From assembly GCF_963378085.1 (NCBI RefSeq), contig NZ_OY726395.1, forward strand, positions 620,001-684,000: a stretch of 64,000 nucleotides of DNA, in the 5' to 3' direction. The translations under genes were made by a program, and so were the position numbers. Numbering within the stretch: the stretch's first letter is position 1; the number at the start of each line of letters is the position of its first letter. This document shows, one piece after another, positions 5,309 through 32,662 of the stretch. The notes below the pieces were generated by a model. That model searched no databases and was not told where the DNA came from. It saw only the letters and a list, made by a program, of their open reading frames with translations. Source of the DNA: Mycolicibacterium sp. MU0050. Its GTDB lineage: Bacteria; Actinomycetota; Actinomycetes; Mycobacteriales; Mycobacteriaceae.

Positions 5309-5309
5309 C

Positions 5310-6557: not shown

Positions 6558-6575
6558 GGGGTGGCCTTCCTGCCG

Positions 6576-6633
6576 CGAGCAGACGCAGACTTCCCCCAAA
6601 ACCGTTCATCTGGGCGGAGTTTGCGTCTGCTCG
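6576..6633. repeat. Long inverted repeat between thiolase-like and amidohydrolase genes
   Basis: The arms at 6576-6591 and 6618-6633 are complementary at 15 of 16 positions, with a 26-nt loop. The right arm reads AGTTTGCGTCTGCTCG. It fills most of the 85-bp gap between two genes of one minus operon, so as RNA it would form a strong stem that could attenuate or protect the transcript. It resembles the intergenic palindromes that recur in mycobacterial genomes, but I cannot test for other copies here. Confidence 0.75.
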
Positions 6634-7843: not shown

Positions 7844-7862
7844 AACCGTAACTCTTACAGTA
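7844..7862 (-). promoter_or_regulatory. Shared 19-bp motif, copy a (thiolase-like operon)
   Basis: AACCGTAACTCTTACAGTA on the plus strand fits WACSGNAnnnnYTACWGTW. It lies 56 bp upstream of the thiolase-like start. Read on the minus strand it contains AAGATACTGTAA, identical to the matching stretch of copy b in the divergent promoter. The same pattern occurs in three other promoter regions of this block. Confidence 0.7.
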
Positions 7863-7937
7863 TCTTATCTAGTGCCGCGATACGACGGCCCGGCGACGCC
7901 CTGTCCGGGGCCGGTGCCGCCCGTTGCCGGGGCAAGA

Positions 7938-7956
7938 TACTGTAACCTTTACCGTT
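7938..7956 (+). promoter_or_regulatory. Shared 19-bp motif, copy b (aldehyde dehydrogenase-P450 operon)
   Basis: TACTGTAACCTTTACCGTT is the mirror-image orientation of copy a, 75 bp away, and points to the operon starting at 8034. Extended by four bases to the left, it repeats the 12-mer AAGATACTGTAA present on the opposite strand at 7855-7866. The symmetry suggests one regulator controls both divergent operons. Confidence 0.7.
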
Positions 7957-8033
7957 GATCGTCCCGAATTCAGCTGGAGTAGCGGTTGCTCTGCTGGTAC
8001 GCCGGGGGTTTGACAGGAAGGCGTAGGCGTCAG

Positions 8034-9560
8034 ATGAGCAGGTCGGAGCTGCGGGTGGACGGCCCGGCGGGGGAGCGTCGCGACGAACTGCTCGCTCTGC
8101 TGCACCGGCAGCGGGAAGCCTTCGTCGAACAGGGGCCGCCGGAACTGGCGGTCCGGCTCAACCGGATCGACCGACTGCTCGCCCTGGTGCTGGACAACAC
8201 CGACGCGCTGGTCGAGGCGATGGGCGCCGACTTCGGCACCCGATCGCGGGCGGCGTCGTTGTTCACCGAGGTCGTCGGGATGATCCCGGTCATCGAGCAC
8301 ACCCGTAAGAACGTGGCCCGCTGGTCCAAGACCACCCGACTGCTGCGCGCCGCGCGCGTGGTGGGCCTGCGGGCCGACGTCGAACCCACCCCGCTGGGCG
8401 TGGTCGGCATCATCGGCCCATGGAACTTCCCGCTGAACCTGGTGGTGCTGCCGGCGACCGCCGCCTTCGCCGCGGGCAACCGGGTGATGATCAAGATGTC
8501 CGAGATCACCCCGCGCACAGGCGCTTTGCTCGAGGAGCTGGCCCCGAAATACTTCGACCCCACCGAACTGGCCGTGGTCAACGGTGGGCCGGAGGTCGCG
8601 GCGGCGTTCAGCGCGCTGCCCTTCGACCACCTGTTCTTCACGGGTTCGCCGGACATCGGGATTCGGGTGCAGCGGGCGGCGGCCGAGCATCTGGTGCCCG
8701 TCACCCTGGAACTCGGCGGGAAGAACCCCGTGGTGGTCGCGCCGGGTGGCGCGGCCGACGTCACCAAGGCGGCCGCGCGGATCGCCGCGGCGCGACTGGT
8801 CAACGGCGGTCAGGTCTGCGTCTGCCCGGACTACGTGCTGGTGCCGCGTGCCCACCTCGAGGCGTTCGCGGACAGCGCGCGGCGCACCTGGCGCGGCATG
8901 TTCGACACCATCGTGGCCAACCCCGACTACTGCTCCAGCGTCAACGAGGCCAACTTCGACCGGGTGCTGGGCCTGATCGACGACGCCCGCTCCAAGGGCG
9001 CCGTGGTCCAGGCGGTGGCGCCGGCAGGCGAGCAGCTTCCGGACCGGGCCACCCGCAAGATCGCGCCGACGCTGGTCAGCGGTGTGGACGACGGGATGCG
9101 GATCGCCCATGAGGAGGTCTTCGGGCCGGTGCTGGCGGTGCTGCCCTACGACGGGCTCGCCGATGCCATCGATTACATCAACGCTCGTCCGGCTCCGCTG
9201 GTGGCCTACTGGTACGGGCCCGACGGCGACGACTTCCGGCGCTTCGTCCGCAGTACCCGCAGCGGCGGCGTCGCCCGCAACGACTTTGCCGCGCAGATGA
9301 TCCCGTCGGCCGCACCGTTCGGCGGGGTGGGCCGCAGCGGCATGGGGGCCTACCACGGCAAGGCCGGGTTCGACGCGTTCAGCCACTACCGCACGGTGGT
9401 GGGCTCGGACCTGCCGTTCAGCATCACCGGCAGCGCCGCGCCACCGTTCACCAAGCCCATGAAGTTGTACGCCGACGCCGCACTTCGGCGGGCCCGCAAC
9501 AAGACTCGCCGCCGGCTGGCCCAGTCCGGTTTGCCCCGAAGTTCAGGAGACAGACGATGA
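8034..9560 (+). CDS. Aldehyde dehydrogenase (coniferyl-aldehyde dehydrogenase-like)
   Basis: A 508-residue ALDH of the class-3/coniferyl-aldehyde type, which is more compact at the N-terminus than class 1/2 enzymes. It shows IIGPWNFPLNL (cofactor-site Asn), FFTGSPDIG, LELGGKNP (general-base Glu) and NGGQVCVCPDYV with the catalytic Cys; a second Cys follows two residues later. The ATG at 8034 is preferred over an upstream in-frame start at 7986. Its TGA overlaps the ATG of the P450 by four bases (ATGA), so the two are translationally coupled. This supports a pathway in which the P450 makes an alcohol or aldehyde that this enzyme oxidises. Confidence 0.92.
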   Translation: MSRSELRVDGPAGERRDELLALLHRQREAFVEQGPPELAVRLNRIDRLLALVLDNTDALVEAMGADFGTRSRAASLFTEVVGMIPVIEHTRKNVARWSKTTRLLRAARVVGLRADVEPTPLGVVGIIGPWNFPLNLVVLPATAAFAAGNRVMIKMSEITPRTGALLEELAPKYFDPTELAVVNGGPEVAAAFSALPFDHLFFTGSPDIGIRVQRAAAEHLVPVTLELGGKNPVVVAPGGAADVTKAAARIAAARLVNGGQVCVCPDYVLVPRAHLEAFADSARRTWRGMFDTIVANPDYCSSVNEANFDRVLGLIDDARSKGAVVQAVAPAGEQLPDRATRKIAPTLVSGVDDGMRIAHEEVFGPVLAVLPYDGLADAIDYINARPAPLVAYWYGPDGDDFRRFVRSTRSGGVARNDFAAQMIPSAAPFGGVGRSGMGAYHGKAGFDAFSHYRTVVGSDLPFSITGSAAPPFTKPMKLYADAALRRARNKTRRRLAQSGLPRSSGDRR

Positions 9561-10762
9561 GCACGGCAACGGTGGTATTCGACCCGTTCTCCGAGGACTT
9601 CTTCAACAGTCCCTACGAGATCTACCGTCGGATGCGTGAGGAAGCGCCGGTCTATTACAGCGAGCAGTACGACTTCTACGCGCTGACCCGGCACGAGGAC
9701 GTCGCCGCGGCGTTCAAGGATCACGAGACGTACTCCTCGGCCTACGGGGTCGACCTGGCGCAGGTCCGCAAGGGAGAGGTCACCGAGCACGGCGGGATCA
9801 TCGCCATGGATCCGCCGGCGCACCGTCGGATGCGCAGCCTGCTGAACAAGGTGTTCACGCCGCGGGCGATCGAGGCCAGGCGCCAGTTGGTCACCGAGAC
9901 CATCGACCACTACCTGTCGGCGATCGACCCCGACGGCTTCGACTTCGTGCAGGATTTCTCGGCGCTGTTCCCGGTCGAGGTGATGACCATCATGCAGGGC
10001 GTCCCCGCCGCGGACCGGCAACAGATCCGGCTGTGGATCGACGACTTCCTGCACCGCGACCCCGGTGAGGTCGAGATGAGCGAAGCGGGGCTGAAGTCCG
10101 CCATCGACATGTCGGTCTACTACTACAAGCTGATCAAGAAGCGCCGTGACGATCTGGGAACCGACCTGCTCAGCAAGCTGATCGAGGCGGAGATCGAGCG
10201 CGAGGACGGGCAGGTGGGCCCGCTCAACAACCTCGAGATCACCGAGTTCGCGGTGCTTCTCGGCGGTGCCGGGGCGGAGACGGTGACCAAGCTGCTGGGG
10301 TCGGCGGCGGTGGTGTTCGCGCAGAACCCCGAGCAGTGGGAGAGGCTGCTGGCCGACCGCAGCAAGGTCCCGGCCGCCGTCGAGGAACTGCTGCGTTACG
10401 AGGCGCCCGCGCAGTACAACGTGCGCCGGTCGATGCGCGAGGTCACCCTGCACGGGGTGACCATCCCCGCCGGCAAGCCGGTGTTCCTGGTGGGCGGGTC
10501 GGCCAACCGGGACCCGGAGGCGTGGACCGACCCCGACACCTTCGACATCGATCGCGACCGCACCCAGTCGCAGAACCTCGGCTTGGGTTACGGCATCCAC
10601 AGCTGCCTGGGGGCGGCGCTGGCCCGGTTGGAGAGCACCATCGCGCTGGACCGGATGCTGGATTTCATGCCGCGCTACGAGGTGGACTGGAGCGGGTGCA
10701 AGCGGGTGAACATGCAGAACGTCGCCGGCTGGAGCAACGTGCCGGTGCGGGTGCTGCGGTAA
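9557..10762 (+). CDS. Cytochrome P450
   Basis: A soluble bacterial P450 of 401 residues. The I-helix reads GGAGAETVTKL (the acid-alcohol pair Glu-Thr), ELLRYEAP contains the ExxR pair, and the haem-binding loop LGYGIHSCLG carries the ligand Cys at residue 350. The first Phe of the FxxGxHxC signature is Leu here. AGGAGA lies 7 nt before the ATG. No ferredoxin or ferredoxin reductase is encoded nearby, so electrons must come from elsewhere in the genome. It is coupled to the aldehyde dehydrogenase; substrate unknown, probably a hydrophobic ring or side chain. Confidence 0.95.
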   Translation: MSTATVVFDPFSEDFFNSPYEIYRRMREEAPVYYSEQYDFYALTRHEDVAAAFKDHETYSSAYGVDLAQVRKGEVTEHGGIIAMDPPAHRRMRSLLNKVFTPRAIEARRQLVTETIDHYLSAIDPDGFDFVQDFSALFPVEVMTIMQGVPAADRQQIRLWIDDFLHRDPGEVEMSEAGLKSAIDMSVYYYKLIKKRRDDLGTDLLSKLIEAEIEREDGQVGPLNNLEITEFAVLLGGAGAETVTKLLGSAAVVFAQNPEQWERLLADRSKVPAAVEELLRYEAPAQYNVRRSMREVTLHGVTIPAGKPVFLVGGSANRDPEAWTDPDTFDIDRDRTQSQNLGLGYGIHSCLGAALARLESTIALDRMLDFMPRYEVDWSGCKRVNMQNVAGWSNVPVRVLR

Positions 10763-10764
10763 CC

Positions 10765-11652
10765 CTAGGGGTTGGCCGACGAGAGTTCCGGGGTGCCCCA
10801 GCGTAGTGGGCCGGGGCCTGCGCGCTCGATCACCGCATCGATGGTGAAATCGATGAAGCATTGCGCGCCGATAGCGAAAGTCTCGGCCTCCCAGACAAGT
10901 TGGGCGCTACCAGTCAGTTGCAGGCTCGCGCCGGTGACCCAGTCCAGCACCAGGATCCCGCACCGCGGGTTCACCTCGATGTTGCCGAGCGTCATGAACA
11001 GCGAGTTGCCGCGGTAGTCGGGCCAGCGCAGTCGGCGCGGCGAGGCTACCTGCAGGAAACCGGGATTGCCGCCGCGGTGGGACGCGTCGTGGTTACCCTC
11101 GGCGTCGGCGGTGGCGACGAAGAATGCATCCGCCTTGGCGAGCATCTCCCGCTGGTGTTCGTTCAGCTCGGTGGCGTGTTGGGGAGCGGACCGTTCGATG
11201 TGCGGCTCGAAGGCGGTGACGTGCCTGCGCGCGATGTACTTCGGGCAATTGGAATAGACCTGATCGACGGTGACGCGCAACCCGTTCCCGTCGGGAGCGA
11301 CGGCTCCGTTGACCCGCATCCGCTTTCGCCGCTCAGGTTGTAGGGCGATCATGCCGATCCGGCTCGGCCGGGCCAGGACGTCCGCCAGTGGATCGCCGGC
11401 GTCCGGCCGCGTGGCCAGCGCGATTGTCCGATCATCGAGTGCGCGCACGAATCCTGGTGCACCCACCAGATCGCTCGCCCACAATCGGCCTGCCGCGTCG
11501 GCCGCGGCCACCACGATCATCGGCTGTTCGGCGAGGAAGGCCGCGGCGACCTCGGGAATGTCGGCGCGGATGCCCCGACTCAGCTTCTCGGCGATGTGCG
11601 ACTGACCCATGCGGTGCTGCACTGCAAGCTCACCCGGGTGGAAATCAACCAC
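10765..11652 (-). CDS. Pyridoxamine-phosphate-oxidase-fold flavin-binding protein
   Basis: About 295 residues with the split-barrel FMN- or F420-binding fold. AAADAAGRLWASDLVG near the N-terminus and ATADAEGNHDASHRGG near the middle are typical 'asp/ser-x-G' strands of PNPOx-like proteins, and the pair indicates two half-barrels. NSLFMTLGNIEVNPRCGILV is the usual dimer-strand signature. The frame begins with GTG at 11661, but AAGGGG abuts that codon, so the GTG at 11652, with 9-nt spacing, is the better start. It is convergent with the P450 (2 bp between stops) and downstream of the VOC gene on the same strand. Redox role and substrate are unknown. Confidence 0.75.
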   Translation of the reverse strand: MVDFHPGELAVQHRMGQSHIAEKLSRGIRADIPEVAAAFLAEQPMIVVAAADAAGRLWASDLVGAPGFVRALDDRTIALATRPDAGDPLADVLARPSRIGMIALQPERRKRMRVNGAVAPDGNGLRVTVDQVYSNCPKYIARRHVTAFEPHIERSAPQHATELNEHQREMLAKADAFFVATADAEGNHDASHRGGNPGFLQVASPRRLRWPDYRGNSLFMTLGNIEVNPRCGILVLDWVTGASLQLTGSAQLVWEAETFAIGAQCFIDFTIDAVIERAGPGPLRWGTPELSSANP

Positions 11653-11700
11653 CGTTGCCACCCCCTTGTGCGGGGCGAAAGTCGGTGCGCCGGGCCAGGC

Positions 11701-12162
11701 TCAGAAGAAGCCACACGTCGGTGCCTCGCCGTGCGGTGCGGGCGCCGACTCGGCCCCGGTGGTGGCGTAGACCTCGAGACGGATTCCGTCCGGGTCGGTG
11801 AAGAAGATGCCGCCCGAGGCGAGACCTTCGCCGTGGGCGACGAGGCCCTCGTGGGCGAAGTCGACTCCGAGTGCGCGCAGGGCTGATTCAACGGCGTGCA
11901 CCTGCTCGACGGAGTCGACCTCGAAGGACAGGTGGTGTAGCCCGGGAGTTCTGGTGGAGAACTCCCCGCTGCTCTGCTGCCAGAGGGTGAGCAGCAATGC
12001 GTCCCCGATGCCGAGAAAGGCCCACCGCTTTGCATCGTCGGAACTCACGGCCAGTTCCTCGAAGCCGAGGGCGCGGCGATAGAAGTCGGCTGACCGCTGC
12101 AGGTCCGACACGTTCAGTCCGACGTGTCCCGTCGTCAGCTTGGGCGCGATGGTGGTGGTCAA
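11701..12162 (-). CDS. VOC-superfamily (glyoxalase/dioxygenase fold) protein
   Basis: A 153-residue vicinal-oxygen-chelate protein. TTGHVGLNVSDLQRSADFY begins the first beta-alpha-beta module, with metal-ligand His in GHVG, and GLHHLSFEV begins the second. FFTDPDGIRLEVY provides the C-terminal metal-ligand Glu. It starts with TTG at 12162, supported by AGGAGG 6 nt upstream. It may act as an isomerase, lyase or extradiol-type enzyme; the fold does not fix the reaction. It diverges from the CGNR gene. Confidence 0.8.
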   Translation of the reverse strand: MTTTIAPKLTTGHVGLNVSDLQRSADFYRRALGFEELAVSSDDAKRWAFLGIGDALLLTLWQQSSGEFSTRTPGLHHLSFEVDSVEQVHAVESALRALGVDFAHEGLVAHGEGLASGGIFFTDPDGIRLEVYATTGAESAPAPHGEAPTCGFF

Positions 12163-12278
12163 GGTAGCCTCCTGTTATAACCGGTATAAATGGGTTTGTG
12201 GGTTAGACCGTAGCCTGGCGGCGCGCGGTACGCAACCGGCAAAGTGTTATTTGATGGTTAGGTCGGAAGGTGGTGGAC

Positions 12279-12830
12279 ATGGTGGCCCCTACCGGCTCGT
12301 TAAGCTCGGGCATGCGCGATCCACGGCCCCACCTCGGCGAACCGCTGGCGTTGGACCTGCTGAACACCCGCTGGATGGACGGTGCCCCACGCGATCTGCT
12401 CGGAGACCTCGACGGATTGCGGATCTGGCTGACATCAGCGGGTATGGCCGACCGTGCGCGCGTCGACCGGCGCACGCTCGAAGCACTGTTGACTGCGCGC
12501 ACCGCAATTCTGGAGGCCGTCCTGCAGGGCGCCAGGGATGGCGTGAACGACGTGCTCGACCACGGCCGGATCCGCCGGATGCTGACTGCCGAGGGGCCCG
12601 TCGATGTCCCTGAAGTTGCGGATCCCGCGTGGCTACCGGCGTGGATGGCCGCGGACAACCTGCTACACCTGATGGCGACCGCGCCGGAGCGGATCCGGCA
12701 GTGCGCCCATCCCGATTGCGTGCTGTTCTTCCTCGATACCTCCAAGAACGCGGCACGTCGATGGCATTCGATGGCCAGCTGCGGCAACCGCGCGAAGGCG
12801 GCACGGCATTATGCCGCCAAGCGGTCGTAG
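12279..12830 (+). CDS. ABATE/CGNR zinc-finger domain protein (putative transcription factor)
   Basis: A 183-residue protein of the family with an N-terminal ABATE domain (HLGEPLALDLLNT is typical) and a C-terminal CGNR zinc finger. The finger's Cys pairs are in QCAHPDCVLFFLD and MASCGNRAKAARHY, spanning about residues 140-178. These proteins are thought to bind DNA as stress-related regulators. The ATG at 12279 is chosen over GTG 12270 because GGAAGG lies 8 nt upstream of it. It is divergent from the VOC protein, tail-to-tail with the acyl-CoA synthetase, and could regulate either. Confidence 0.8.
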   Translation: MVAPTGSLSSGMRDPRPHLGEPLALDLLNTRWMDGAPRDLLGDLDGLRIWLTSAGMADRARVDRRTLEALLTARTAILEAVLQGARDGVNDVLDHGRIRRMLTAEGPVDVPEVADPAWLPAWMAADNLLHLMATAPERIRQCAHPDCVLFFLDTSKNAARRWHSMASCGNRAKAARHYAAKRS

Positions 12831-12850
12831 TTCCAGCGGTTTCGCTGTTA

Positions 12851-14491
12851 CTACGGAGTTGCGGTGGCCTGTTCCTTGGCCCAGCGGTAGTCGGCCTTGC
12901 CGGCCGGGCTGCGCTCGATGGCGGGGCGGAACACCACCGCCTTGGGCAGCTTGTAGCGGGCCAGGGTGGTTCCGGCGTGGGCGATGAGTTCCTCGGCGTC
13001 GGCGTGCGCGCCGGGTATTAGCGCGACCACGGCCACCACCTCCTGCCCCCACCGGTCGCTGGGGCGCCCGGTCACCACGACATCGGCCACCGCCGGGTGG
13101 GAGGCCACCGCGGTCTCGACCTCCTCGGCGAAGATCTTCTCGCCGCCGGAGTTGATGGTCACCGAGTCGCGGCCGAGCAGATGGATGTTGCCGTCGGCGA
13201 GATGGCGCGCCCGGTCACCCGGAATGGCGTAGCGCACGCCCTCGACCACCGGGAAGGTGCGCGCGGTCTTCTCCGGATCCCCGTTGTAGCCCAACGGAAC
13301 CGGGCCCCGCTGGGCCAACCAGCCGTTGCCGTCGTGGCCGGCGGCCAGCACGCGGCTGAAGTCCTCGGCGACCACGCAGGTGTCCGGTCCCGGTTTGAAG
13401 GTGCCGGTGGACACCACACCCGGCGCCGACATGTGGGTCATCTGCGCCCCGGTCTCCGACGAGCCGACGCCGTCGACGACGATCAGGCCTGGCTTGAGGT
13501 CGATCAGGCGTTGCTTGGCGGTGGGGGTCAGCAGCGCGCCGCCGTTGGCGACGACGTTGAGCGAGGAGACGTCGGCCGTGCCACGTTCGATGGCGTCGGC
13601 GAGCGGCCGCACCATGGCATCGCCCACCACGGTGATCACCGCGGCCTGGTGCCGGGCGATGTCCGCGACGACCGCGTCGGCGTCGAAGCGGTTGGCGACC
13701 TCCGCGAACACCACGGTCTGCCCCGTGGTGAGCGCCGTCATGACCGCCCACTGCGCGGCGCCGTGCATCAGCGGCGGCAGGATCATCAACTTCATCCCCG
13801 GGTTGGCGCGCGCCTTCTCGACGATCTCGTCGACGGATTCGGCGGTGTGCCCGCTGTAGAGGTCGCGTCCGCCGAAGGAGGCGACGAAGATGTCGTGCTG
13901 ACGCCACAGCACGCCCTTGGGCATCCCGGTGGTCCCGCCGGTGTAGAGCACGTAGAGATCGTCCGGGTCGGCCTGCACGGGCGGCGGGTTCCCGGCCACC
14001 GAGGCCAGCGCGTCGTCGTAATCGACTGCGCCGGGCAGCAGTTCGTTGCCGGAGGCGTCCGCGATCTGGATGAGCACCCGAAGCTGCGGGAGATCCGCGC
14101 GGATCTCGGCGACCCGCGGGGCGAACTCCGCGTGGTAGAGCAGCGCGGTGGCGCCGGCGTCGGCCAGCAGGTATTGCAGCTCGCCTTTGACGTAACGGTA
14201 GTTGACGTTGAACGGGGCGACCCGGGCCCGGAACGCGCCCAGCATGCCCTCGACGTACTCGGGCCCGTTGTGGGCGTAGATGCCCATCAGGTCCTGCCCG
14301 GTCTGGTGCCCGGCGAGCTGAGCGCGCGGGGTGTGGCAGCCCAGGCCCTGCGCGTGCAGGTACGCGGCCAGCCGATTGGACCGTTCCTGCACCTGCGCGT
14401 GGGTGTAGACGCGGTCCCCCTGGACGAGGAGGGGACGGTCCGGGATGGCCGCCGCGATCGCGTCGGCCACGGCGGGAACGGTGAATGCCAT
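12851..14491 (-). CDS. Acyl-CoA synthetase (FadD-type, ANL superfamily)
   Basis: Forms an acyl-CoA by way of an acyl-adenylate. It has 546 residues. The AMP-binding P-loop YTGGTTGMPKGVLWRQ is the version common in mycobacterial sterol- and long-chain FadD enzymes. Other motifs are DGVGSSETG, the hinge region GRDSVTINSGGEKIF and the C-terminal catalytic Lys in RSPAGKADYRW. The ATG at 14491 has GGAG 5 nt upstream. It is third in the Rieske-isochorismatase-FadD operon, 22 bp after the isochorismatase-fold gene. It probably activates the carboxylic acid released by the upstream oxidative steps. Confidence 0.93.
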   Translation of the reverse strand: MAFTVPAVADAIAAAIPDRPLLVQGDRVYTHAQVQERSNRLAAYLHAQGLGCHTPRAQLAGHQTGQDLMGIYAHNGPEYVEGMLGAFRARVAPFNVNYRYVKGELQYLLADAGATALLYHAEFAPRVAEIRADLPQLRVLIQIADASGNELLPGAVDYDDALASVAGNPPPVQADPDDLYVLYTGGTTGMPKGVLWRQHDIFVASFGGRDLYSGHTAESVDEIVEKARANPGMKLMILPPLMHGAAQWAVMTALTTGQTVVFAEVANRFDADAVVADIARHQAAVITVVGDAMVRPLADAIERGTADVSSLNVVANGGALLTPTAKQRLIDLKPGLIVVDGVGSSETGAQMTHMSAPGVVSTGTFKPGPDTCVVAEDFSRVLAAGHDGNGWLAQRGPVPLGYNGDPEKTARTFPVVEGVRYAIPGDRARHLADGNIHLLGRDSVTINSGGEKIFAEEVETAVASHPAVADVVVTGRPSDRWGQEVVAVVALIPGAHADAEELIAHAGTTLARYKLPKAVVFRPAIERSPAGKADYRWAKEQATATP

Positions 14492-14513
14492 TGTCACTCC
14501 AGGGGTTGGACCA

Positions 14514-15134
14514 TCACCGCTGCCAGGCGCCGATCAGGGCATCGGTGGTGGTGACGGTGGACAGCAGGGACAGGGTGTTGTCGATGATGGCGGCGCCGTA
14601 TTCGGTCGGGATGCCGGCCACCGCGTCGCGGGGCAACACCACCCGGTAACCGGCGTTGACGGCATCCATCACCAGGTTGGGGATCGCGACGTTCAGCGAA
14701 ACCCCCACCGCGACGATGGTGCGGACGCCCAGGTTACGCAGCACGGCATCCAGGTCCGTGCCCCCCATCGGGCCCAGGCCGTGCCAGCGGTGCAGCACCA
14801 GATCGCTTGGCTCCGGGCCGAACTCGTCGAGCAGGGTCGCGCCGGGGCTGCCCGGTGCGATGTCCACGTCGTGGCGGCCGATCGCGAACAGCTTGGCGTT
14901 GTGGTTGGACCCGCGGCTGTCGGCGCGGCGCTGCACCAGGCAGTGCACCACCGCGGCGCCGGCCGAGCGCGCCGCCGGCAGCAGCCGGGCGATGTTGGGC
15001 AGCGCCTCGCGGCGGGCCTCGTTCGCCAGCGCCGCCAATCCGGCGGACGGGCCGACCACCGCGCCCTGCAACTCCTGGGTGACGATCGCGGTGTGGCCGG
15101 GCGCGATCAGCTCCTCGAGTGTTTCGGGGGTCAC
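14514..15134 (-). CDS. Isochorismatase-fold hydrolase lacking the usual catalytic Cys
   Basis: A 206-residue protein with the isochorismatase/cysteine-hydrolase fold. The first strand reads TAIVTQELQGAVVG, with Glu where most members have the catalytic Asp. The region that normally holds the Cys reads VGVSLNVAIPNLVMDA, so Cys is replaced, and the Lys region reads HRWHGLGP. With Asp, Lys and Cys all changed, ordinary amidase or isochorismatase chemistry is unlikely. It starts with GTG at 15134, overlapping the Rieske gene stop by four bases (GTGA), so it is translationally coupled to the oxygenase. It could be a non-hydrolytic or accessory protein. Confidence 0.8.
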   Translation of the reverse strand: MTPETLEELIAPGHTAIVTQELQGAVVGPSAGLAALANEARREALPNIARLLPAARSAGAAVVHCLVQRRADSRGSNHNAKLFAIGRHDVDIAPGSPGATLLDEFGPEPSDLVLHRWHGLGPMGGTDLDAVLRNLGVRTIVAVGVSLNVAIPNLVMDAVNAGYRVVLPRDAVAGIPTEYGAAIIDNTLSLLSTVTTTDALIGAWQR

Positions 15135-16165
15135 GCGTTGGTCAGGTCGGGAGCGGGGACGTCGCCGGGCGGGGTGACGGGAATGTCGTAGAACTGCTTG
15201 GCCCACTTCCGCATGGCCATATACGGTTTGGCGTCGATCTTGGCCAGCGGGGGATTCTCCACGTACTTCTGATACCGCCAGATGTCGCAGTCCTCCCACA
15301 CGGTCTTGAGGAACTGCCGCTCCACTTTGTCGCGGACGTGCGCGGGCGGCACGTCGGACGTCTCGCCGGGCTCCTTGGGCCACCAGATGGAATAGAACAT
15401 GTCGGAGACCTCGTCGTCGACGGGGGTGCAGGCGAAGATCAGCCGGTGGTTGGAGGAGCCCTCGAAGGCGCTCATTGCGAACCCGAGGCCGGAGAAGTGG
15501 CTGTGGATGCGCAGGGCCATCGCGTCCGGGTCGTCGCTGCGGGCGTCCGGCCAGCCGGTGAGGAACCGCCACTCTTGGTCCTCGTGCTCCCAGTGCAGGC
15601 ACACCGGCGTCACGGTGGCCTTGTGCACGTAGCGGAAATGTGAACTGTCCGGGCCGTTTTCGGCGACGATCTGTGGGTGGACCGGAATCGCGTCGGCCCG
15701 ACTGGAGAACTCCGGATACGGCCGGTAGTAGGCGTTGGGGTCGGTTTCGAACTGCGGGAACTTGTGGAAAATATCGGGCAACTCCCACCGCGGGGGTTCG
15801 CCGTGCGGCTGGTACCACAGGAAGATGCAACCGTACTGTTCGCGGACCGGATAGGAGCGCAGCTTCAGGCCCCGATTGGGCCGGTCGGGCTGGTACGGGA
15901 TGTAGGTGTTGTCGCCCTGCGGGCCCCACCGCCAGCCGTGGAAGGGGCATTCGACGCAGTCGCCGACCACCTTGCCGCCGTGACCGATGTGGGCGCCCAG
16001 GTGTTTGCAGTGCGCCTCCAGGACGTGCAACTCGCCGTTCTCGTCGCGGTAGGCGGCCAGGTCCTCGCCGAAGTATTTCAGTGCCTTGACGTCACCGACC
16101 TCGTACTCGGCCGACCATCCGATCATGAACCACCCGGTGACTTTCCAGGTGAAGGGGACTTTCAT
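15131..16165 (-). CDS. Rieske non-haem iron oxygenase (KshA-like)
   Basis: Oxygenase component of a Rieske system, 344 residues. The Rieske cluster ligands are CKHLGAH and CVECPFHGW (CxH...CxxH) at about residues 52-75. The mononuclear iron site begins with DSSHFRYVH near residue 175. Length and layout resemble 3-ketosteroid 9-alpha-hydroxylase KshA and similar single-subunit enzymes. The ATG at 16165 has AGGGA upstream. No reductase gene is adjacent. It is first in a minus operon with isochorismatase-fold and FadD genes, and the shared 19-bp motif lies at 16196-16214. A ring-hydroxylating role in the pathway is likely. Confidence 0.92.
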   Translation of the reverse strand: MKVPFTWKVTGWFMIGWSAEYEVGDVKALKYFGEDLAAYRDENGELHVLEAHCKHLGAHIGHGGKVVGDCVECPFHGWRWGPQGDNTYIPYQPDRPNRGLKLRSYPVREQYGCIFLWYQPHGEPPRWELPDIFHKFPQFETDPNAYYRPYPEFSSRADAIPVHPQIVAENGPDSSHFRYVHKATVTPVCLHWEHEDQEWRFLTGWPDARSDDPDAMALRIHSHFSGLGFAMSAFEGSSNHRLIFACTPVDDEVSDMFYSIWWPKEPGETSDVPPAHVRDKVERQFLKTVWEDCDIWRYQKYVENPPLAKIDAKPYMAMRKWAKQFYDIPVTPPGDVPAPDLTNA

Positions 16166-16195
16166 AGTCGCATCCCTAATCTTGCCTACGGTAAG

Positions 16196-16214
16196 TACGG
16201 AATAGATTACAGTA
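16196..16214. promoter_or_regulatory. Shared 19-bp motif, copy c (Rieske / NTF2-BVMO divergent promoters)
   Basis: TACGGAATAGATTACAGTA fits WACSGNAnnnnYTACWGTW. It lies in the 85-bp gap between the Rieske start (16165, minus) and the NTF2-like start (16251, plus), so one site can serve both operons. An extra TACGGTA half-site lies beside it at 16187-16193. Confidence 0.7.
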
Positions 16215-16250
16215 GCGGTTTCCGCAAGACCATCGAGGAGGCAGCGCAGG

Positions 16251-16709
16251 ATGACCGAACCGCCCGCCGCGACACCGCAGGACGAGATCGAGGCGATCCG
16301 CCGACTGAAGGCGCAGTATTGCCGGTTTCTCGACACCCGCGACATCCCCGCGTGGCGCGCGCTGTTCGATCCCGACGTCGTCGTCACCCTGGATCTGGCG
16401 GTGTCCACCGGCGGCGCCGACCCGCAAACCATGCCGCCCCTGCAGGGCCTCGAGGCGTTCGAGCCGGTGGTGCTCGGCGGGATCGCCGACGCGGCCACCA
16501 TGCACCACTGCCACACGCCGGAGATCGACCTGACCTCCCCGACCACCGCCTCCGCGATCTGGGCCATGGAGGACCTGCTGGTGTGGGAGGGCCGGCAACT
16601 GCACGGCGCCGGGCACTATCACGAGACCTACGAGAAGAGCGACGGCCGCTGGCGCATCAAGACTCTGCACCTCACCCGGACGATGCTGCGGTTCACGGAG
16701 TCGGCGTGA
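16251..16709 (+). CDS. NTF2-like (SnoaL/ketosteroid-isomerase fold) protein
   Basis: A 152-residue NTF2-fold protein. The opening DEIEAIRRLKAQYCRFLDTRDIPAWRALF is the classic SnoaL_4 start, and HHCHTPEIDL with AIWAMEDLL forms the cone-shaped pocket strands. The family includes isomerases, dehydratases and limonene-type epoxide hydrolases. GAGGAGG lies about 14 nt upstream of the ATG. The stop overlaps the GTG of the monooxygenase by four bases, implying a functional pair. It may process a product of the oxygenases in the same cluster. Confidence 0.85.
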   Translation: MTEPPAATPQDEIEAIRRLKAQYCRFLDTRDIPAWRALFDPDVVVTLDLAVSTGGADPQTMPPLQGLEAFEPVVLGGIADAATMHHCHTPEIDLTSPTTASAIWAMEDLLVWEGRQLHGAGHYHETYEKSDGRWRIKTLHLTRTMLRFTESA

Positions 16710-18322: not shown

Positions 18323-18324
18323 CC

Positions 18325-19446: not shown

Positions 19447-19817
19447 TGCGAACCGCGCGCGAAGTGGTCGAGCTGTACAACCTCGAACTGTGGAACAACC
19501 GGCGCTATGACCTGGCCGACGAGATCATCGCCGACACCATGATCCGTCACGAGGTCGGGGAATCCCACACCCTGACCCGCGCGCAGGCGCGCAAGCGCGT
19601 CGAGGACACGTGTGCGGCCTTCGAGAGCCTCACGTTCGTCCTCAACACGGTGATCGCCGGCGACGACGGTCAGCATGTCGCCATCGTCTACGACTCGACA
19701 TTGACCAGCCACGACGGCAACGAGATCCAGATCGCCAGCATCGAGGTGTTCAAGGTGGTCGACGGGCGGATCACCGACGTCTGGAATTGTGGTTACGGAC
19801 AAGGGGCCTGGCACTAG
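19446..19817 (+). CDS. Second NTF2-like (SnoaL fold) protein
   Basis: A 123-residue SnoaL-like protein. REVVELYNLELWNNRRYDLADEII is the opening helix pair and IEVFKVVDGRITDVWNCGY the terminal strands that shape the pocket. The ATG overlaps the hydrolase stop by one base (TGATG), so it is co-translated. It may be an isomerase, dehydratase or cyclase for an intermediate of the same pathway. It is not closely similar to the NTF2-like protein that opens the operon. Confidence 0.85.
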   Translation: MRTAREVVELYNLELWNNRRYDLADEIIADTMIRHEVGESHTLTRAQARKRVEDTCAAFESLTFVLNTVIAGDDGQHVAIVYDSTLTSHDGNEIQIASIEVFKVVDGRITDVWNCGYGQGAWH

Positions 19818-19877
19818 CCCGCCCGTTTCTGCTCGAACCCGAGCGACGCGAAGAATTGTGAGCGAAGGAGCGTGGGC

Positions 19878-20930
19878 ATGACCGAACGAGTTCTCGACGA
19901 GTTGGGCTACTACCTGCTGGCCGGGGCCGGGGGTGCAGGTCCGGCGTCCCTGATGGACGAGGCGCGCCGCGGGGAGGAACTGGGGTTCGGTACGGCCTTC
20001 ATCTCCGAGCGGTGGAACGTCAAGGAGGCCTCGTCGCTGACCGGTGCGGCGTGTGCCGTCACATCGCGCATGCAGATCGCCACCGCTGCGACCAACCACA
20101 ACACCCGACACCCGCTGATCACCGGGTCGTACGCCACCACCATGCACCGATTGTCGGGGGGTCGGTTCACGCTGGGCATCGGGCGCGGCATCGCGGCGAT
20201 GTACAACGCCTTCGGCGTGCCGGCCGTGACCACCGCGCAGATGGAGGACTTCGCGCAGGTGATGCGCCGGCTCTGGCACGGTGAGCTGATCTTCAACCAC
20301 GACGGGCCGATCGGGAAGTACCCGGTGCTGTTCCTCGACCCCGACTTCGACGAGGACATCCGGCTGGCCATCGTGGCGTTCGGGCCCCAGACCCTGGCGT
20401 TGGGTGGGCGCGAATTCGACGACGTCATCCTGCACACCTACTTCACCCCGGAGACGCTGCAGCGCGCGGTCAAGACCGTCAAGGACGCCGCCGAGCAGGC
20501 CGGGCGCGATCCGGATTCGGTGAAGGTCTGGTCCTGCTTCGCGACCGTCGGGGACCACCTGCCCGAGGAGGTCCGGCTCAAGAAGACCGTCGCCCGGCTG
20601 GCCACCTACCTGCAGGGCTACGGCGACCTGCTGGTCAGCACGAACGGCTGGGATCCCGCTGTGCTGGAACGGTTCCGCGCGGATTCGGTGGTGACCTCGA
20701 TCCCGGGCGGCATCGACCACAAGGCCAGCGCCGAACAGATCGAGCACATCGCCACGTTGATCCCCGACGAGTGGCTGGAACCGGCCGCCACCGGCAGCGC
20801 GCAGCAGTGCGTCGAGCGCATCCGCAAGGAGTTCGACTACGGCGCCGACGCGTTGATCATGCACGGCGCCACGCCGGATGAACTGGAGCCCATCGTGGCG
20901 GAGTACCGGGCGCAGGACAGCGCCCGCTAA
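19878..20930 (+). CDS. LLM-class flavin/F420-dependent oxidoreductase
   Basis: A TIM-barrel luciferase-like oxidoreductase of 350 residues. LMDEARRGEELGFGTAFISERW, TRHPLITGSYATTMHRLSGGR and FTLGIGRG are hallmarks of the actinobacterial F420-dependent branch. AAGGAG is 8 nt before the ATG at 19878, which is preferred over GTG 19872. It is last in the NTF2-monooxygenase-hydrolase operon, and its stop overlaps the stop of the convergent lipocalin-like gene. It probably carries out a hydride transfer in the pathway. Confidence 0.88.
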   Translation: MTERVLDELGYYLLAGAGGAGPASLMDEARRGEELGFGTAFISERWNVKEASSLTGAACAVTSRMQIATAATNHNTRHPLITGSYATTMHRLSGGRFTLGIGRGIAAMYNAFGVPAVTTAQMEDFAQVMRRLWHGELIFNHDGPIGKYPVLFLDPDFDEDIRLAIVAFGPQTLALGGREFDDVILHTYFTPETLQRAVKTVKDAAEQAGRDPDSVKVWSCFATVGDHLPEEVRLKKTVARLATYLQGYGDLLVSTNGWDPAVLERFRADSVVTSIPGGIDHKASAEQIEHIATLIPDEWLEPAATGSAQQCVERIRKEFDYGADALIMHGATPDELEPIVAEYRAQDSAR

Positions 20931-21340
20931 CTGGGACGAGCGGAACCCGCCGCGTCCCGGCGCCAGACCAAGGTGCTGTGAGTGCGGCCGGTTTCGCCGT
21001 CCATGCTGGCGGACAGCGTCAGGATGTCGCCGTCGATCACGTAGTGCCGCAACTGCGGCCGGGCCAGGAGGTCGGGCATGGTCGCCATGACGACATCGTG
21101 GCGCACCGTGCCGGCCGCCGCGTCGAGGTGAAACGTGCCGCCGTAGGCGATGTACGCTCCAATCTCGGCGTCCTCGGCCGGATCCGGCGCCAACTGCGCC
21201 GACATCCAGCCGTCGGCGGTGTAGAGGATGAGCCCGCGCGGATGCCGACCCAGCGGGTGCCGGGTGTTGCCGGCGTCATCGCGGGCGACGAAGGACTTGA
21301 GGCGCCATCCGCCGTGAATTGCGCTGTTGTCGGGGGACAT
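20927..21340 (-). CDS. Lipocalin-like domain protein
   Basis: A 137-residue protein of the lipocalin-like (Lipocalin_5) type. HGGWRLKSFVARDD opens the barrel and GLILYTADGWMSAQL is the typical second signature. TFHLDAAAGTVRHDVV and DILTLSASMDG are later strands. No signal peptide is visible, so it is cytosolic and may bind a small hydrophobic intermediate. It lies 26 bp downstream of the carboxyltransferase on the minus strand, in one operon. Confidence 0.8.
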   Translation of the reverse strand: MSPDNSAIHGGWRLKSFVARDDAGNTRHPLGRHPRGLILYTADGWMSAQLAPDPAEDAEIGAYIAYGGTFHLDAAAGTVRHDVVMATMPDLLARPQLRHYVIDGDILTLSASMDGETGRTHSTLVWRRDAAGSARPS

Positions 21341-21366
21341 CGGGGCTTGGGCCTCCGCTCGGGCTG

Positions 21367-22890
21367 TCAGGGCAGGATTGCGGTGCGCAGCACCGGCTGG
21401 GCCGGCGCCTGGCGGGTATACAGGCCGCGCTGCAGCGCGCTCAACAACGCGGTGCGGGTCTCCCGGGGGTCGATGAGCTCGTCGAAGCCGAGGTTCTTCG
21501 CCGAGTTGAACGAGGCCTGCAGTTCGGCGTCGTGCAACTTCTCGGACAGCTCGGTATCGGCCTTGGCGGCGCGGCTGAGCGCACCGGCACTCATGGCCCC
21601 CATGGTGGCCCCGGGATAGCCGAATGTCGCGACCTGATCATCGAAGCCCAACAGCGACATCACCATCGACCCGAAGCCGTAGGCCTTGCGCAGCGTCAGG
21701 TGCAGCTTCAGCGTGGTTGCCGTGGTCTGCGCGGTGAACATCCGTGCGCCGCTGAGCAACACCCCGTCGCGTTCGGAACGGCTGCCGGGCAGCATGCCGG
21801 GATTGTCGGCCAGGAAGATGATCGGCAGATGGAACGCGTCGGCGACCATGATGAAATGCGCCGCCTTGTCGGCGGCGTCGGAATCGATGGATCCGGCCAT
21901 CACCTGCGGTTGGTTGGCGACCACCGCCACCGGGTGCCCGCCGAGGTGGGCCAGCGCGCAGACGATTCCGCGGCCGAACCCGGGCTGCACCTCGAACCAG
22001 TCCGGGTCGTCGAAGACCACGTCGAGCACGGCACGCATGTCGTACACCCGGCGGTTGTCCCGGGGGACGATGTCGAGCAGCTCGGGAGTCGACCGGGGCG
22101 CGGCGGCGGCGTTCGTGGACCGGGCCGACGGATAAGACCAGGCGCTGGACGGGAAGTAGGAGAGATAGCGGCGGATGTCGTCGAGGGCGGCCGCGTCGTC
22201 GTCGACCACGTTGTGGATCACCCCGCTGGGCACCGCCACGTCCGGGCCGCCCAGCTCCTCCTTCGAAATGTCCTCCCCGGTCGACTCTTTGACCACCGGC
22301 GGGCCGGCGGTGAAGATGGCGCCGTGGCGGCTCATGATGCGGAAGTCGCAGACCGGCGCGACCAGCGCGCCGTGACCGGCCGACGGGCCCAGGACGGCCG
22401 ACACTGTCGGCACCAGCCCGGAGCATCGGGCCTGGGCGAGCAGGTCGGTCGGGGAGCGGCCGCCGTGCTTGCCGGGGCGGAAGCCGGCGCCCTCGAGCAG
22501 CATCACCAGCGGAATCTTGTTGCGCAGCGCCAACTCCGCGATGCGGTAGCGCTTGGAGTTGCTGCCCGAGCCGATGGTTCCCGCGACGGTGGTGAAGTCC
22601 TCTGCGCCCACCATGATGGGCGCGCCGTTCACCTCGCCGGACCCCACCACGATGCCGTCGGCGGCCACCTCGCCGCCGACCAGCGTCCCGAGTTCGCGGA
22701 AGGTGTCGGGGTCCAGTAGTCGTTGAATGCGTGCGCGCGCATCGAGTTTGCCGCTCGCGCGGTGTGCGGCCAGCCGGTCGGCACCGCCCATCGAGTGCGA
22801 GCGCTCGCGGCGCCGGTGGAGGTCGGCCAGCGTCTCCGCCCAGGCCGCCGAGTTCGCCGCCGCGTCCGGGTCGCGCCGCGATTCCGTCAT
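21367..22890 (-). CDS. Acyl-CoA carboxylase carboxyltransferase (beta) subunit
   Basis: A 507-residue carboxyltransferase of the acetyl/propionyl-CoA carboxylase beta family. The N-half shows GAPIMVGAEDFTTVAGTIGS and the acyl-CoA oxyanion region GAGFRPG. The C-half shows the biotin-site region GYPGATMGAMSAGALS. GAGGAG is 4 nt before the ATG. No biotin-carboxylase or biotin-carrier gene is in this window, so it must share an alpha subunit from elsewhere or act without biotin. It is divergent from the LLM gene, with copy d of the 19-bp motif between them. Confidence 0.88.
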   Translation of the reverse strand: MTESRRDPDAAANSAAWAETLADLHRRRERSHSMGGADRLAAHRASGKLDARARIQRLLDPDTFRELGTLVGGEVAADGIVVGSGEVNGAPIMVGAEDFTTVAGTIGSGSNSKRYRIAELALRNKIPLVMLLEGAGFRPGKHGGRSPTDLLAQARCSGLVPTVSAVLGPSAGHGALVAPVCDFRIMSRHGAIFTAGPPVVKESTGEDISKEELGGPDVAVPSGVIHNVVDDDAAALDDIRRYLSYFPSSAWSYPSARSTNAAAAPRSTPELLDIVPRDNRRVYDMRAVLDVVFDDPDWFEVQPGFGRGIVCALAHLGGHPVAVVANQPQVMAGSIDSDAADKAAHFIMVADAFHLPIIFLADNPGMLPGSRSERDGVLLSGARMFTAQTTATTLKLHLTLRKAYGFGSMVMSLLGFDDQVATFGYPGATMGAMSAGALSRAAKADTELSEKLHDAELQASFNSAKNLGFDELIDPRETRTALLSALQRGLYTRQAPAQPVLRTAILP

Positions 22891-22924
22891 GCTCCTCCTC
22901 GGTGGCCGGGTGCGCCATTGACCC

Positions 22925-22943
22925 TACCGAAGCACTTACTGTA
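22925..22943. promoter_or_regulatory. Shared 19-bp motif, copy d (carboxyltransferase / LLM divergent promoters)
   Basis: TACCGAAGCACTTACTGTA fits WACSGNAnnnnYTACWGTW. It occupies the middle of the 65-bp gap between the divergent starts 22890 and 22956, and its right end abuts the TAGCGT -10 box (22942-22947) of the plus gene, a position suited to repression. Confidence 0.72.
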
Positions 22944-22955
22944 GCGTCCACGACC

Positions 22956-23987
22956 ATGTCGGGGCGCCTGAAGATCGACCGTGGGATCCCCAGTCGACTC
23001 GACGGCGTGCCCGAGGCCGCGCGCGCCCACGAGCAGGCGGGTTACGACGGCTGCTGGACCGGCGAGATCAACCATGATCCCTTCCTGCCGTTGGCGTTGG
23101 CCGCCGAGCACACCAACTCGATCGAACTGGGCACCAGCATTGCGGTGGCCTTCGCGCGCACCCCGATGACGGTGGCCCATCTGGGCTGGGATCTGCAGAC
23201 GTACTCCCGCGGCCGATTCATTCTCGGGCTGGGCACCCAGATCCAGCCGCACATCGAGAAGCGCTTCGGGATGCCGTGGAGCCACCCGGTGCGGCGGATG
23301 ACGGAATTCATTGCGGCGCTGCGGGAAATCTGGTCCTGCTGGAGCACCGGGGAACGCCTCGACTTCCAGGGCGAGTTCTACAGCCACACCCTGATGACCC
23401 CGATGTTCACGCCGGAGCCCTCGGAGTTCGGCGTGCCGAAGGTCTTCGTCGCGGCGGTGGGCACCGGCATGACGCAGATGTCCGGCGCGGTGGCCGACGG
23501 CCTGCTGGTGCATGCCTTCACCACCCGCCGCTACCTCGAGGAAGTGACCGAACCGGCGCTGGCCCGCGGACTGCAAAGCAGCGGGAGGCGGCGTCGGGAC
23601 TTCGAGGTGTCCAGCCCGGTCTTCGTGGTCACCGGGCGCGACGACGACGAGATGGCGGCGGCGGCAGCGTCGTTCCGCAAGCAGATCGCGTTCTACGGTT
23701 CGACGCCCGCGTATCGGCGGGTGCTGGAACTGCACGGGTGGGGCGAACTCCAGCCCGAGCTGCGGCGGCTGTCGCTGGCCGGCGAGTGGGACGCGATGGC
23801 CCAGGTCATCGACGACGAGGTCCTGGCGGCGTTCGCCGTCGTCGCCCCAGTCGACGAGGTCGGTGCGGCGCTGGCGCGCCGTTGCTCCGGGGTGATCGAC
23901 CGGGTCCTGCCGGGATTCCCGAGCGGGACGCCCGAACCCGTGATCGCGGCGGTGCTCGACGAAGTGCGCGCTTCGCGCGGTGAGTGA
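22956..23987 (+). CDS. LLM-class F420-dependent oxidoreductase
   Basis: A 343-residue luciferase-like TIM-barrel oxidoreductase. EAARAHEQAGYDGCWTGE, IELGTSIAVAFARTPMTVAH and RGRFILGLGTQIQPHIEKRF are characteristic of the F420-dependent subgroup. The ATG at 22956 is chosen because TAGCGT (22942-22947) lies 8 nt upstream, consistent with a leaderless transcript; the frame is open to 22731. It is followed 9 bp later by an SDR gene, and the two probably catalyse sequential oxidoreductions. Confidence 0.88.
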   Translation: MSGRLKIDRGIPSRLDGVPEAARAHEQAGYDGCWTGEINHDPFLPLALAAEHTNSIELGTSIAVAFARTPMTVAHLGWDLQTYSRGRFILGLGTQIQPHIEKRFGMPWSHPVRRMTEFIAALREIWSCWSTGERLDFQGEFYSHTLMTPMFTPEPSEFGVPKVFVAAVGTGMTQMSGAVADGLLVHAFTTRRYLEEVTEPALARGLQSSGRRRRDFEVSSPVFVVTGRDDDEMAAAAASFRKQIAFYGSTPAYRRVLELHGWGELQPELRRLSLAGEWDAMAQVIDDEVLAAFAVVAPVDEVGAALARRCSGVIDRVLPGFPSGTPEPVIAAVLDEVRASRGE

Positions 23988-23996
23988 GGAAACGAG

Positions 23997-24854
23997 ATGA
24001 CGGATGCCATCGGCGGCAGGACCATTGCCATCACCGGTGCGGCCCGCGGGATCGGCTGGGCCACCGCCAAGGCGCTGCTGAGCCGCGGCGCCCGAGTGGT
24101 GATCGGTGACCGCGACGTCCCGGTGCTGGAACGGGCGGTAGTGGAATTGGCCGAGTACGGAACGGTGTCGGGGCACCCGCTGGACGTCACCGATCCCGAA
24201 TCCTTTGCCGGTTTCCTGGACAAGGCCCGCGCCGACGGCGGCGGTCACATCGACGTTCTGGTCAACAACGCCGGGGTGATGCCGGTGGGCCCGTTCCTGG
24301 AGCAGTCCGAGCAGGCCATCCGCACGTCGATTGAGGTGAATTTCTACGGGGTGCTCAACGGCTGCCGCCTGGTGTTGCCCGAGATGACGGCGCGCGGTAG
24401 CGGACACATCGTCAACATCGCCTCGCTGGCCGGCGTGGTCGCCGTGCCCGGGCAGGTGGTGTACGCGGGCACCAAGTTCGCCGTCGTGGGGCTCTCGACG
24501 GCGATGGCCGACGAGTTCGCCGGGCGCGGCGTCGACGTCAGCGTGGTGATGCCGCCGTTCACCCGCACCGAACTGATCTCCGGGACCAAGGCGTCCGGCG
24601 CCAGTCGGCCGGTCGAGCCCGAGGTGATCGCCAAGGCGGTGGTCGCGGTGCTGAACAAGCCGAAGACCCACGTCGCGGTGCCCTATCCGATGCGGTTCGT
24701 CTCCCCGATGCTGGCGATGCTGGGGCCGCGGACCCGGCGGCGGTTGCACAAGCTGATGGGTTCCGACCGGTTGTTCCTGGATTTCGACGAGGACGCCCGC
24801 AGTGCCTACGCGCGCCGAGCCGAGACGGCGACCGGCGTGGTTTCCGAGGGTTGA
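23997..24854 (+). CDS. Short-chain dehydrogenase/reductase (SDR)
   Basis: A 285-residue classical SDR. The cofactor loop is TGAARGIG, NNAG is followed by the Ser of IASLAG, and the catalytic pair is YAGTK (YxxxK). RDVPVLE after strand two, with an acidic Asp, suggests NAD(H) preference. The C-terminal tail is longer than minimal SDRs, with a basic segment RTRRRLHKLMG. It follows the LLM gene in one operon and likely acts on an alcohol or ketone of the pathway. Confidence 0.92.
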   Translation: MTDAIGGRTIAITGAARGIGWATAKALLSRGARVVIGDRDVPVLERAVVELAEYGTVSGHPLDVTDPESFAGFLDKARADGGGHIDVLVNNAGVMPVGPFLEQSEQAIRTSIEVNFYGVLNGCRLVLPEMTARGSGHIVNIASLAGVVAVPGQVVYAGTKFAVVGLSTAMADEFAGRGVDVSVVMPPFTRTELISGTKASGASRPVEPEVIAKAVVAVLNKPKTHVAVPYPMRFVSPMLAMLGPRTRRRLHKLMGSDRLFLDFDEDARSAYARRAETATGVVSEG

Positions 24855-24892
24855 CCAGCCGGTCACGGCCCCGCACCCACTACTGAATGACT

Positions 24893-24911
24893 TACCGCAA
24901 CTGCTACTGTT
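24893..24911 (+). promoter_or_regulatory. Shared 19-bp motif, copy e (second P450)
   Basis: TACCGCAACTGCTACTGTT fits WACSGNAnnnnYTACWGTW, with the last base T. It lies 47 bp upstream of the P450 start in the 104-bp gap after the SDR gene, so the P450 probably has its own promoter under the same control. Confidence 0.65.
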
Positions 24912-29331: not shown

Positions 29332-29335
29332 CACA

Positions 29336-29352
29336 TCGGCGAGTCTCGCCGA
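29336..29352. promoter_or_regulatory. 17-bp palindrome upstream of the permease
   Basis: TCGGCGAG-T-CTCGCCGA is a perfect inverted repeat with 8-bp arms and a one-base centre, 4 bp after the TetR stop. The single central base fits a protein-binding site better than an RNA hairpin. It could be an operator for the permease at 29421. Confidence 0.55.
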
Positions 29353-29420
29353 ATGTTCACCCTTTGCGGGGCGCCCGGGTTGAAGATGGGTACCGCACGC
29401 GCGGATCGAGGGAGATGAAC

Positions 29421-32605: not shown

Positions 32606-32648
32606 CGAGGGCCCGCTCCGCCCCTGACCGGGCCCAAACGGCGGGCCG

Positions 32649-32654
32649 TAAGCT
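32649..32654 (+). promoter_or_regulatory. -10 box of purB (leaderless)
   Basis: TAAGCT ends 8 nt before the GTG start at 32663 and no ribosome-binding site is present, so transcription probably starts at the initiation codon. Confidence 0.6.
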
Positions 32655-32662
32655 GTGTCTTC

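Follow-up and report, generated by a model that had tools for sequence, protein, structure and literature searches.

TetR-family regulators are mostly repressors. One of them, KstR, represses a large lipid-catabolic regulon, that of cholesterol, and its operator has the form TNNAACNNGTTNNA. KstR2 is described as recognizing a 14-bp palindrome, AnCAAGnnCTTGnT, in three promoter regions of a 15-gene regulon for cholesterol catabolism (PMC3068626). The DNA considered here is a 64,000-nucleotide stretch of Mycolicibacterium sp. MU0050 (contig NZ_OY726395.1, positions 620,001 to 684,000; hereafter the window), in which five copies of a 19-bp motif are found in the promoter gaps of a catabolic gene cluster. 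These copies are very probably operators of P0001, an autoregulated TetR repressor that would control a catabolic regulon of about 60 kb and some unlinked targets. Positions are given in window numbering unless marked as contig positions.

The predicted regulon appears to work like that of KstR2. In both, a palindrome is found in the promoter of the TetR repressor's own gene as well as in divergent gaps within a catabolic cluster close by, and the arrangement is conserved among actinomycetes; however, the palindrome here is a different one of 19 bp, it serves more promoters and different genes, and none of the five sites matches AnCAAGnnCTTGnT (PMC3068626). KstR is also similar in that this TetR protein represses a large regulon of lipid catabolism, and the Rieske protein of the present cluster is KshA-like, but the full motif TNNAACNNGTTNNA has no match in the 144 kb around the window, where only the bare core AACNNGTT is common. 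The LexA/SOS box of E. coli has the form CTGT-N8-ACAG. It is likewise unmatched in these 144 kb, and the palindrome that is frequent in relatives of this organism, TACTGTAA-N3-TTACAGTA, has a spacing of N7. This palindrome does resemble the SOS box, and the genes look sterol-like, yet the motif tracks P0001, so it is hardly credible that the sites belong to LexA, KstR, or KstR2.

Operators of EthR and Mce3R are described as larger and more complex and as occurring in multiple copies (PMC4482099). They are comparable to the three-box variants described below, whereas the core here is a classical 19-bp palindrome and a third box is found in about 13% of 123 non-redundant sites. The same report (Balhana et al., 2015) predicted eleven novel mycobacterial TetR motifs, with the approach and genus also used here. 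The present operator may already be among those motifs. PccD, another mycolicibacterial TetR, concerns propionyl-CoA carboxylase genes (PMC11596240). No description of the P0001 TetR, its operator, or the cluster was found in the literature as represented by titles and abstract openings, a coverage that leaves out supplements and most subscription journals.

The five 19-mers were verified in the window sequence. They are listed with two accessory boxes and with the distance to the nearest likely start codons, which spans 12 to 77 bp across the window sites, as judged from the gap sequence and start candidates.

7844 to 7862, plus strand: predicted operator 1, AACCGTAACTCTTACAGTA, 55 bp from the likely GTG of the thiolase gene at 7788
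7938 to 7956, minus strand: predicted operator 2, AACGGTAAAGGTTACAGTA on the minus strand, 77 bp from the likely ATG of the aldehyde dehydrogenase gene at 8034
16196 to 16214, plus strand: predicted operator 3, 30 bp from the ATG of the Rieske oxygenase gene at 16165
16208 to 16226, minus strand: third box of operator 3, one mismatch, with the middle box shared, 24 bp from the ATG of the SnoaL-like gene
22925 to 22943, plus strand: predicted operator 4, in a divergent gap, 34 bp from the carboxyltransferase ATG and 12 bp from the F420-type oxidoreductase ATG
24881 to 24899, plus strand: weak extra box TACTGAA, three mismatches, 13 bits, upstream of operator 5
24893 to 24911, plus strand: predicted operator 5, 47 bp from the likely P450 ATG at 24959

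The first-pass annotation of this DNA had reported the five sites with these positions and orientations, box starts 12 bp apart, and a placement in promoter gaps throughout, and all of this is borne out. Its figure of seven transcription units also agrees with the gene layout, from which the gaps would serve 2 + 2 + 2 + 1 = 7 gene starts. The pattern WACSGNANNNNYTACWGTW occurs in exact form five times in the window and was absent from 100 dinucleotide shuffles. The same five are its sole zero-mismatch matches in the 5,224,726-bp genome. A random density of the motif, one of two results that the first-pass annotation had named as refuting, was not found. When one mismatch is allowed, the window gains only the box at 16208 to 16226. 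Five one-mismatch matches away from the cluster (contig 1019103, 3402985, 3846975, 4873825, and 5086795) were set aside as weak leads. At a tolerance of up to two mismatches, the genome shows no enrichment of the pattern, with 128 matches against 562 for a reversed-pattern control. Thus, weak matches alone carry no meaning, and the signal resides in the strong matches and their placement.

A matrix was built from the five sites and scanned over contig 560 to 704 kb, with matches of at least 14 bits reported. To the right of 24911 there is none, either in the rest of the window or in the next 20 kb, and this agrees with the earlier remark that the motif was not seen in the purine half. The set of five is nevertheless incomplete, in view of the extra box at 16208 to 16226 and of further sites to the left of the window. 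Nine motif arrays are present in the contig, from 584 to 645 kb. Those outside the window, all of at least 14 bits, are as follows.

contig 584684: upstream of an APH/EcKL kinase-like gene
contig 604242 to 604272: between two divergent enoyl-CoA hydratase genes
contig 606314: between the TetR gene (P0001) and a short-chain dehydrogenase gene
contig 612205: upstream of a third enoyl-CoA hydratase gene

The earlier proposal of a local regulon under one regulator is well supported, although the regulon is larger than the catabolic block then described, at about 60 kb plus unlinked targets.

The regulator had been considered not obviously encoded among these genes. A candidate can be proposed in P0001, a TetR-family protein, and TetR was one of the families suggested at that time.

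G000:C1:605311-606096, minus strand: P0001, TetR family, 261 aa, 14 kb to the left of the window

P0001 possesses the TetR_N helix-turn-helix (PF00440, 49.6 bits against a cutoff of 24) and the C-terminal ligand domain TetR_C_1 (PF02909, 31.4 bits against a cutoff of 21), and its best solved match is a tetracycline repressor. Its promoter holds a copy of the motif that scores 21 bits, and no other TetR encoded within or next to the cluster has a strong site in its promoter. Three other TetR proteins are encoded within or beside the cluster and could be imagined to bind the sites instead, at 28699 to 29331, near contig 588180 (EthR_C type), and near contig 579300. The best match near the first of these reaches 7.4 bits at a distance of a kilobase, and neither of the others has a match of at least 9 bits within 1 kb, which makes control by one of the three very improbable. 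The TetR at 28699 to 29331 was rejected as the regulator for the lack of a strong site nearby. It carries a TetR_C_31 domain and is followed by an amino-acid permease, the pair extending over 28699 to 30848 on the plus strand. The EthR_C-domain TetR (L032 8180-8683, plus strand, from contig 588180 on) is located in the left part of the cluster and adjoins a flavin monooxygenase gene.

With the matrix from the five sites alone, a site of at least 14 bits is present within 350 bp upstream of P0001 orthologues in 75 of 80 named mycobacterial loci. Among the five misses, L122 has just 6 bp of upstream sequence, L105 and L144 have near-matches by eye, and L097 has a looser one. At a threshold of 11 bits, 29 of 30 whole-genome loci, the present genome included, have a site in this promoter; the single miss (L058) has only about 6 bp of upstream sequence.

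Motif and regulator also occur together across genomes. Taking a match of E = 1e-99 or better as an orthologue, P0001 is represented in 72 of 98 sampled genomes. Of the 26 others, 22 have no match better than about 2e-16 and four have a distant relative (1e-40 to 1e-63). The strict pattern, WACNGWANNNNYTACWGTA, was found in 62 of the 72 genomes with the orthologue and in 1 of the 26 without it (Fisher p = 3e-14, a value that overstates the case because the genomes are related). A reversed-pattern control was found in 26 of 72 and 4 of 26 genomes, with 35 matches in all against 288 for the strict pattern, palindromes being counted on both strands. A close Rieske orthologue (E below 1e-150) is present in 54 of 96 genomes; all 54 possess the TetR, and 53 of them the strict site. 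The sites, their positions, their conservation, and their co-occurrence with the TetR gene are established.

Conservation of individual promoters was examined in 12 relatives, in which gene content and order are largely retained. Their 60-kb regions hold 86 sites of at least 17 bits, against shuffle means (five shuffles each) that sum to 0.4. A gene was counted when the orthologue was at least 50% identical over at least half of the query and a site of at least 14 bits was located between -250 and +15. The sites are well kept at the carboxyltransferase gene of the 22925 gap (11/11), the TetR gene (11/12), enoyl-CoA hydratase c (11/12), and the Rieske gene at 16196 (9/12), and are also found at enoyl-CoA hydratase a (7/11) and the SnoaL-like gene (2/3). 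In a separate Rieske set, 25 of 30 loci, the present one included, have a site within 250 bp; elsewhere, 11 matches were counted in 112,554 bp. Of the five loci that lack such a site, four have a strong one 0.8 to 1.05 kb upstream, and one has none.

A number of observations count against P0001 as the single regulator of all these sites. The thiolase and aldehyde dehydrogenase 2 genes, which flank the 7844/7938 gap, have a site in just 6 of 12 and 3 of 9 relatives, respectively. The P450 site at 24893 is kept in 0 of 10, and the counts are similarly low for ECHb (0/11), the dehydrogenase adjoining the TetR gene (2/11), and APH (0/1). Some genes have a site in relatives and none here, namely CaiB (7/8), AmH4 (5/8), u168 (3/7), DHDPS (2/6), CYP1 (2/6), and Lipoc (1/1), and thus sites come and go. 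In Mycobacterium lepraemurium (L116) the TetR is kept with no operator before its gene. Ten genomes possess the TetR without the strict site, nine of which also lack a close Rieske orthologue. Further, a profile search of the genome gave 138 TetR_N matches (150 of 238 first-look candidates scored), and the TetR candidates that were weighed are those in or beside the cluster. A second TetR, discussed below, adds to these points.

Two neighbouring sites remain in M. lepraemurium, and the missing operator is possibly a mark of genome decay. The first-pass annotation had also named poor conservation in orthologous gaps as a refuting result; conservation is uneven, and it is poor for one gap only, that at 24893. 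The P450 gene at 24959 adjoins the oxidoreductase gene on the same strand in most relatives in which both were mapped, and is thus probably read from the 22925-type promoter in those relatives. The site at 24893 may have been gained locally, next to the dehydrogenase gene at 23997. Other genes have neither a site of their own nor one in relatives: AmH1 (0/12), AMPb (0/12), ACS (0/11), LLM1 (0/12), u180 (0/10), and, with fewer orthologues, AmH3 (0/7), SDR2 (0/1), and FMO (0/1). No orthologue of u608, u610, ALDH1, PNPOx, or Glx was found in the 12 relatives, and APH, FMO, SDR2, and Lipoc have an orthologue in one of the 12 each.

Some sites distant from the cluster may mark unlinked targets. One at contig 1498692 (L036, about 8693) is nearly palindromic and is located upstream of a P450 gene whose orthologue (64 to 66% identical) also has an upstream site in two relatives. 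This P450 is probably a satellite member of the regulon. Another site, at contig 2511792, is near an MFS gene with a DUF309 gene in between; the orthologue of the MFS gene (77%) has an upstream site in one relative. In three relatives (L220, L221, and L222), an unlinked site lies between a divergent carboxyltransferase/APH-EcKL-type pair, the families being assigned with Pfam in L220 and by homology in the other two. Both families also bear sites in the cluster of the window's own genome.

The motif was earlier described as two unlike boxes. It is instead an inverted repeat of 19 bp, TACNGTA-(A)NNN(T)-TACWGTA, with the consensus WACNGWA-A-NNN-T-TACWGTA over 71 distinct sites, and the perfect palindrome TACTGTAA-N3-TTACAGTA is frequent in relatives. 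Over the same 71 sites, the arms are 0.74 identical as an inverted repeat and 0.70 as a direct repeat, values that are close because each box is itself half-palindromic. A direct-repeat reading is disfavoured by the preference for the flanking A8 (0.62) and T12 (0.76), which suit the inverted repeat. In 13% of 123 non-redundant sites there is a further box at +24 from the first, against 3% or less at other offsets outside the site. This third box sits 12 bp beyond, and in many of the loci that were read the fixed-spacing layout recurs in Rieske, TetR, and enoyl-CoA hydratase promoters; the arrangement at operator 3 is found in several relatives. At such three-box sites, a second dimer may bind beside the first or compete with it.

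The second TetR, TetR2, is 51 to 59% identical to P0001 and is encoded no further than about 8 kb from the Rieske gene in at least 11 of 98 genomes. The recognition helix VGVTSIYWYF is common to P0001 and all five TetR2 proteins read. Regulator and operator are thus not strictly one to one, which is a further point against P0001 alone, and the two proteins may share operators. It could be supposed that the Rieske/P450 block is in truth regulated by TetR2 and that P0001 is limited to the enoyl-CoA hydratase end, since TetR2 genes are found close to near-perfect palindromes. This is unlikely: strong sites are present in the genome of the window, which has no TetR2 among the matches listed (the other listed match is 27% identical), and relatives G004, G084, and G085, likewise without TetR2 among the matches listed, have 5, 5, and 4 strict sites. 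A tentative and rather doubtful extension is that 7-bp half-palindromic boxes (TAC-N-GTA), repeated every 12 bp, make up the operators and that two closely related TetR proteins, alike in their recognition helix, read them. Where a genome encodes the pair, the two proteins might respond, through the same DNA, to different intermediates of one long pathway, and three-box sites, with their shared middle box, might let dimers compete or stack, grading the response. With its three-box sites and a second, paralogous repressor, the system offers a small case study of TetR operator evolution.

P0001 remains the preferred regulator of the five sites. A dimer of this protein would bind the 19-bp inverted repeat TACNGTA-N5-TACWGTA and would repress its own promoter, which is divergent from that of the short-chain dehydrogenase. 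By covering promoters, it would also repress the approximately 60-kb cluster, including the genes for the enoyl-CoA hydratases, thiolase, aldehyde dehydrogenase, P450s, Rieske oxygenase, carboxyltransferase, and F420-type oxidoreductase, and it would act on a few unlinked targets. An intermediate of the pathway, perhaps an acyl-CoA derived from a cyclic compound of terpenoid- or steroid-like type, could release it. Binding, repression, inducer, and substrate are all predicted here from sequence. Operators 12 to 77 bp from the likely start codons fit what would be expected for repression. That P0001 binds these sites but acts mainly as an activator is quite unlikely, given these distances and the prevalence of repressors in its family.

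The cluster encodes acyl-CoA ligases, hydratases, a thiolase, a Rieske oxygenase, and P450s. The Rieske protein has its best solved matches among 3-ketosteroid 9alpha-hydroxylase oxygenases, and the P450 at 24959 to 26197 has P450terp and a CYP125 ancestor. With low confidence, this gene set, the KshA-like Rieske protein, and the P450terp/CYP125-like P450 suggest breakdown of a cyclic lipid, either terpenoid or steroid-like. For a large catabolic cluster that is retained in many mycobacteria, the analysis offers a probable regulator together with an operator and a set of genes. The compound that releases the repressor is likely the substrate or an intermediate, so the repressor can serve as a handle on the substrate of the cluster. 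The genes of the cluster in the window are listed below.

2562 to 3785, minus strand: CoA-transferase family III (Pfam PF02515), with no site here and an upstream site in 7 of 8 relatives
3824 to 5632, minus strand: aldehyde dehydrogenase (Pfam PF00171), true start probably further in
5310 to 6599, minus strand: amidohydrolase (Pfam PF04909)
6643 to 7788, minus strand: thiolase or lipid-transfer-type protein (Pfam; NCBIfam below cutoff), first gene of the leftward unit
8034 to 9560, plus strand: aldehyde dehydrogenase (Pfam PF00171 on the longer frame 7986 to 9560)
9557 to 10762, plus strand: cytochrome P450 (Pfam PF00067)
15131 to 16165, minus strand: Rieske oxygenase with a KshA_C domain (Pfam on the longer frame)
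16251 to 16709, plus strand: SnoaL-like protein (Pfam PF13577)
21367 to 22890, minus strand: carboxyltransferase (Pfam PF01039)
22956 to 23987, plus strand: F420-dependent LLM-class oxidoreductase (TIGR03617 above cutoff on the longer frame)
23997 to 24854, plus strand: short-chain dehydrogenase (Pfam)
24959 to 26197, plus strand: cytochrome P450 (Pfam on the longer frame)

Further along the window, a 963-aa open frame on the minus strand (30845 to 33736) carries both DUF429 and RelA_SpoT domains. It is either an unusual fusion or a frame that has been extended too far upstream.

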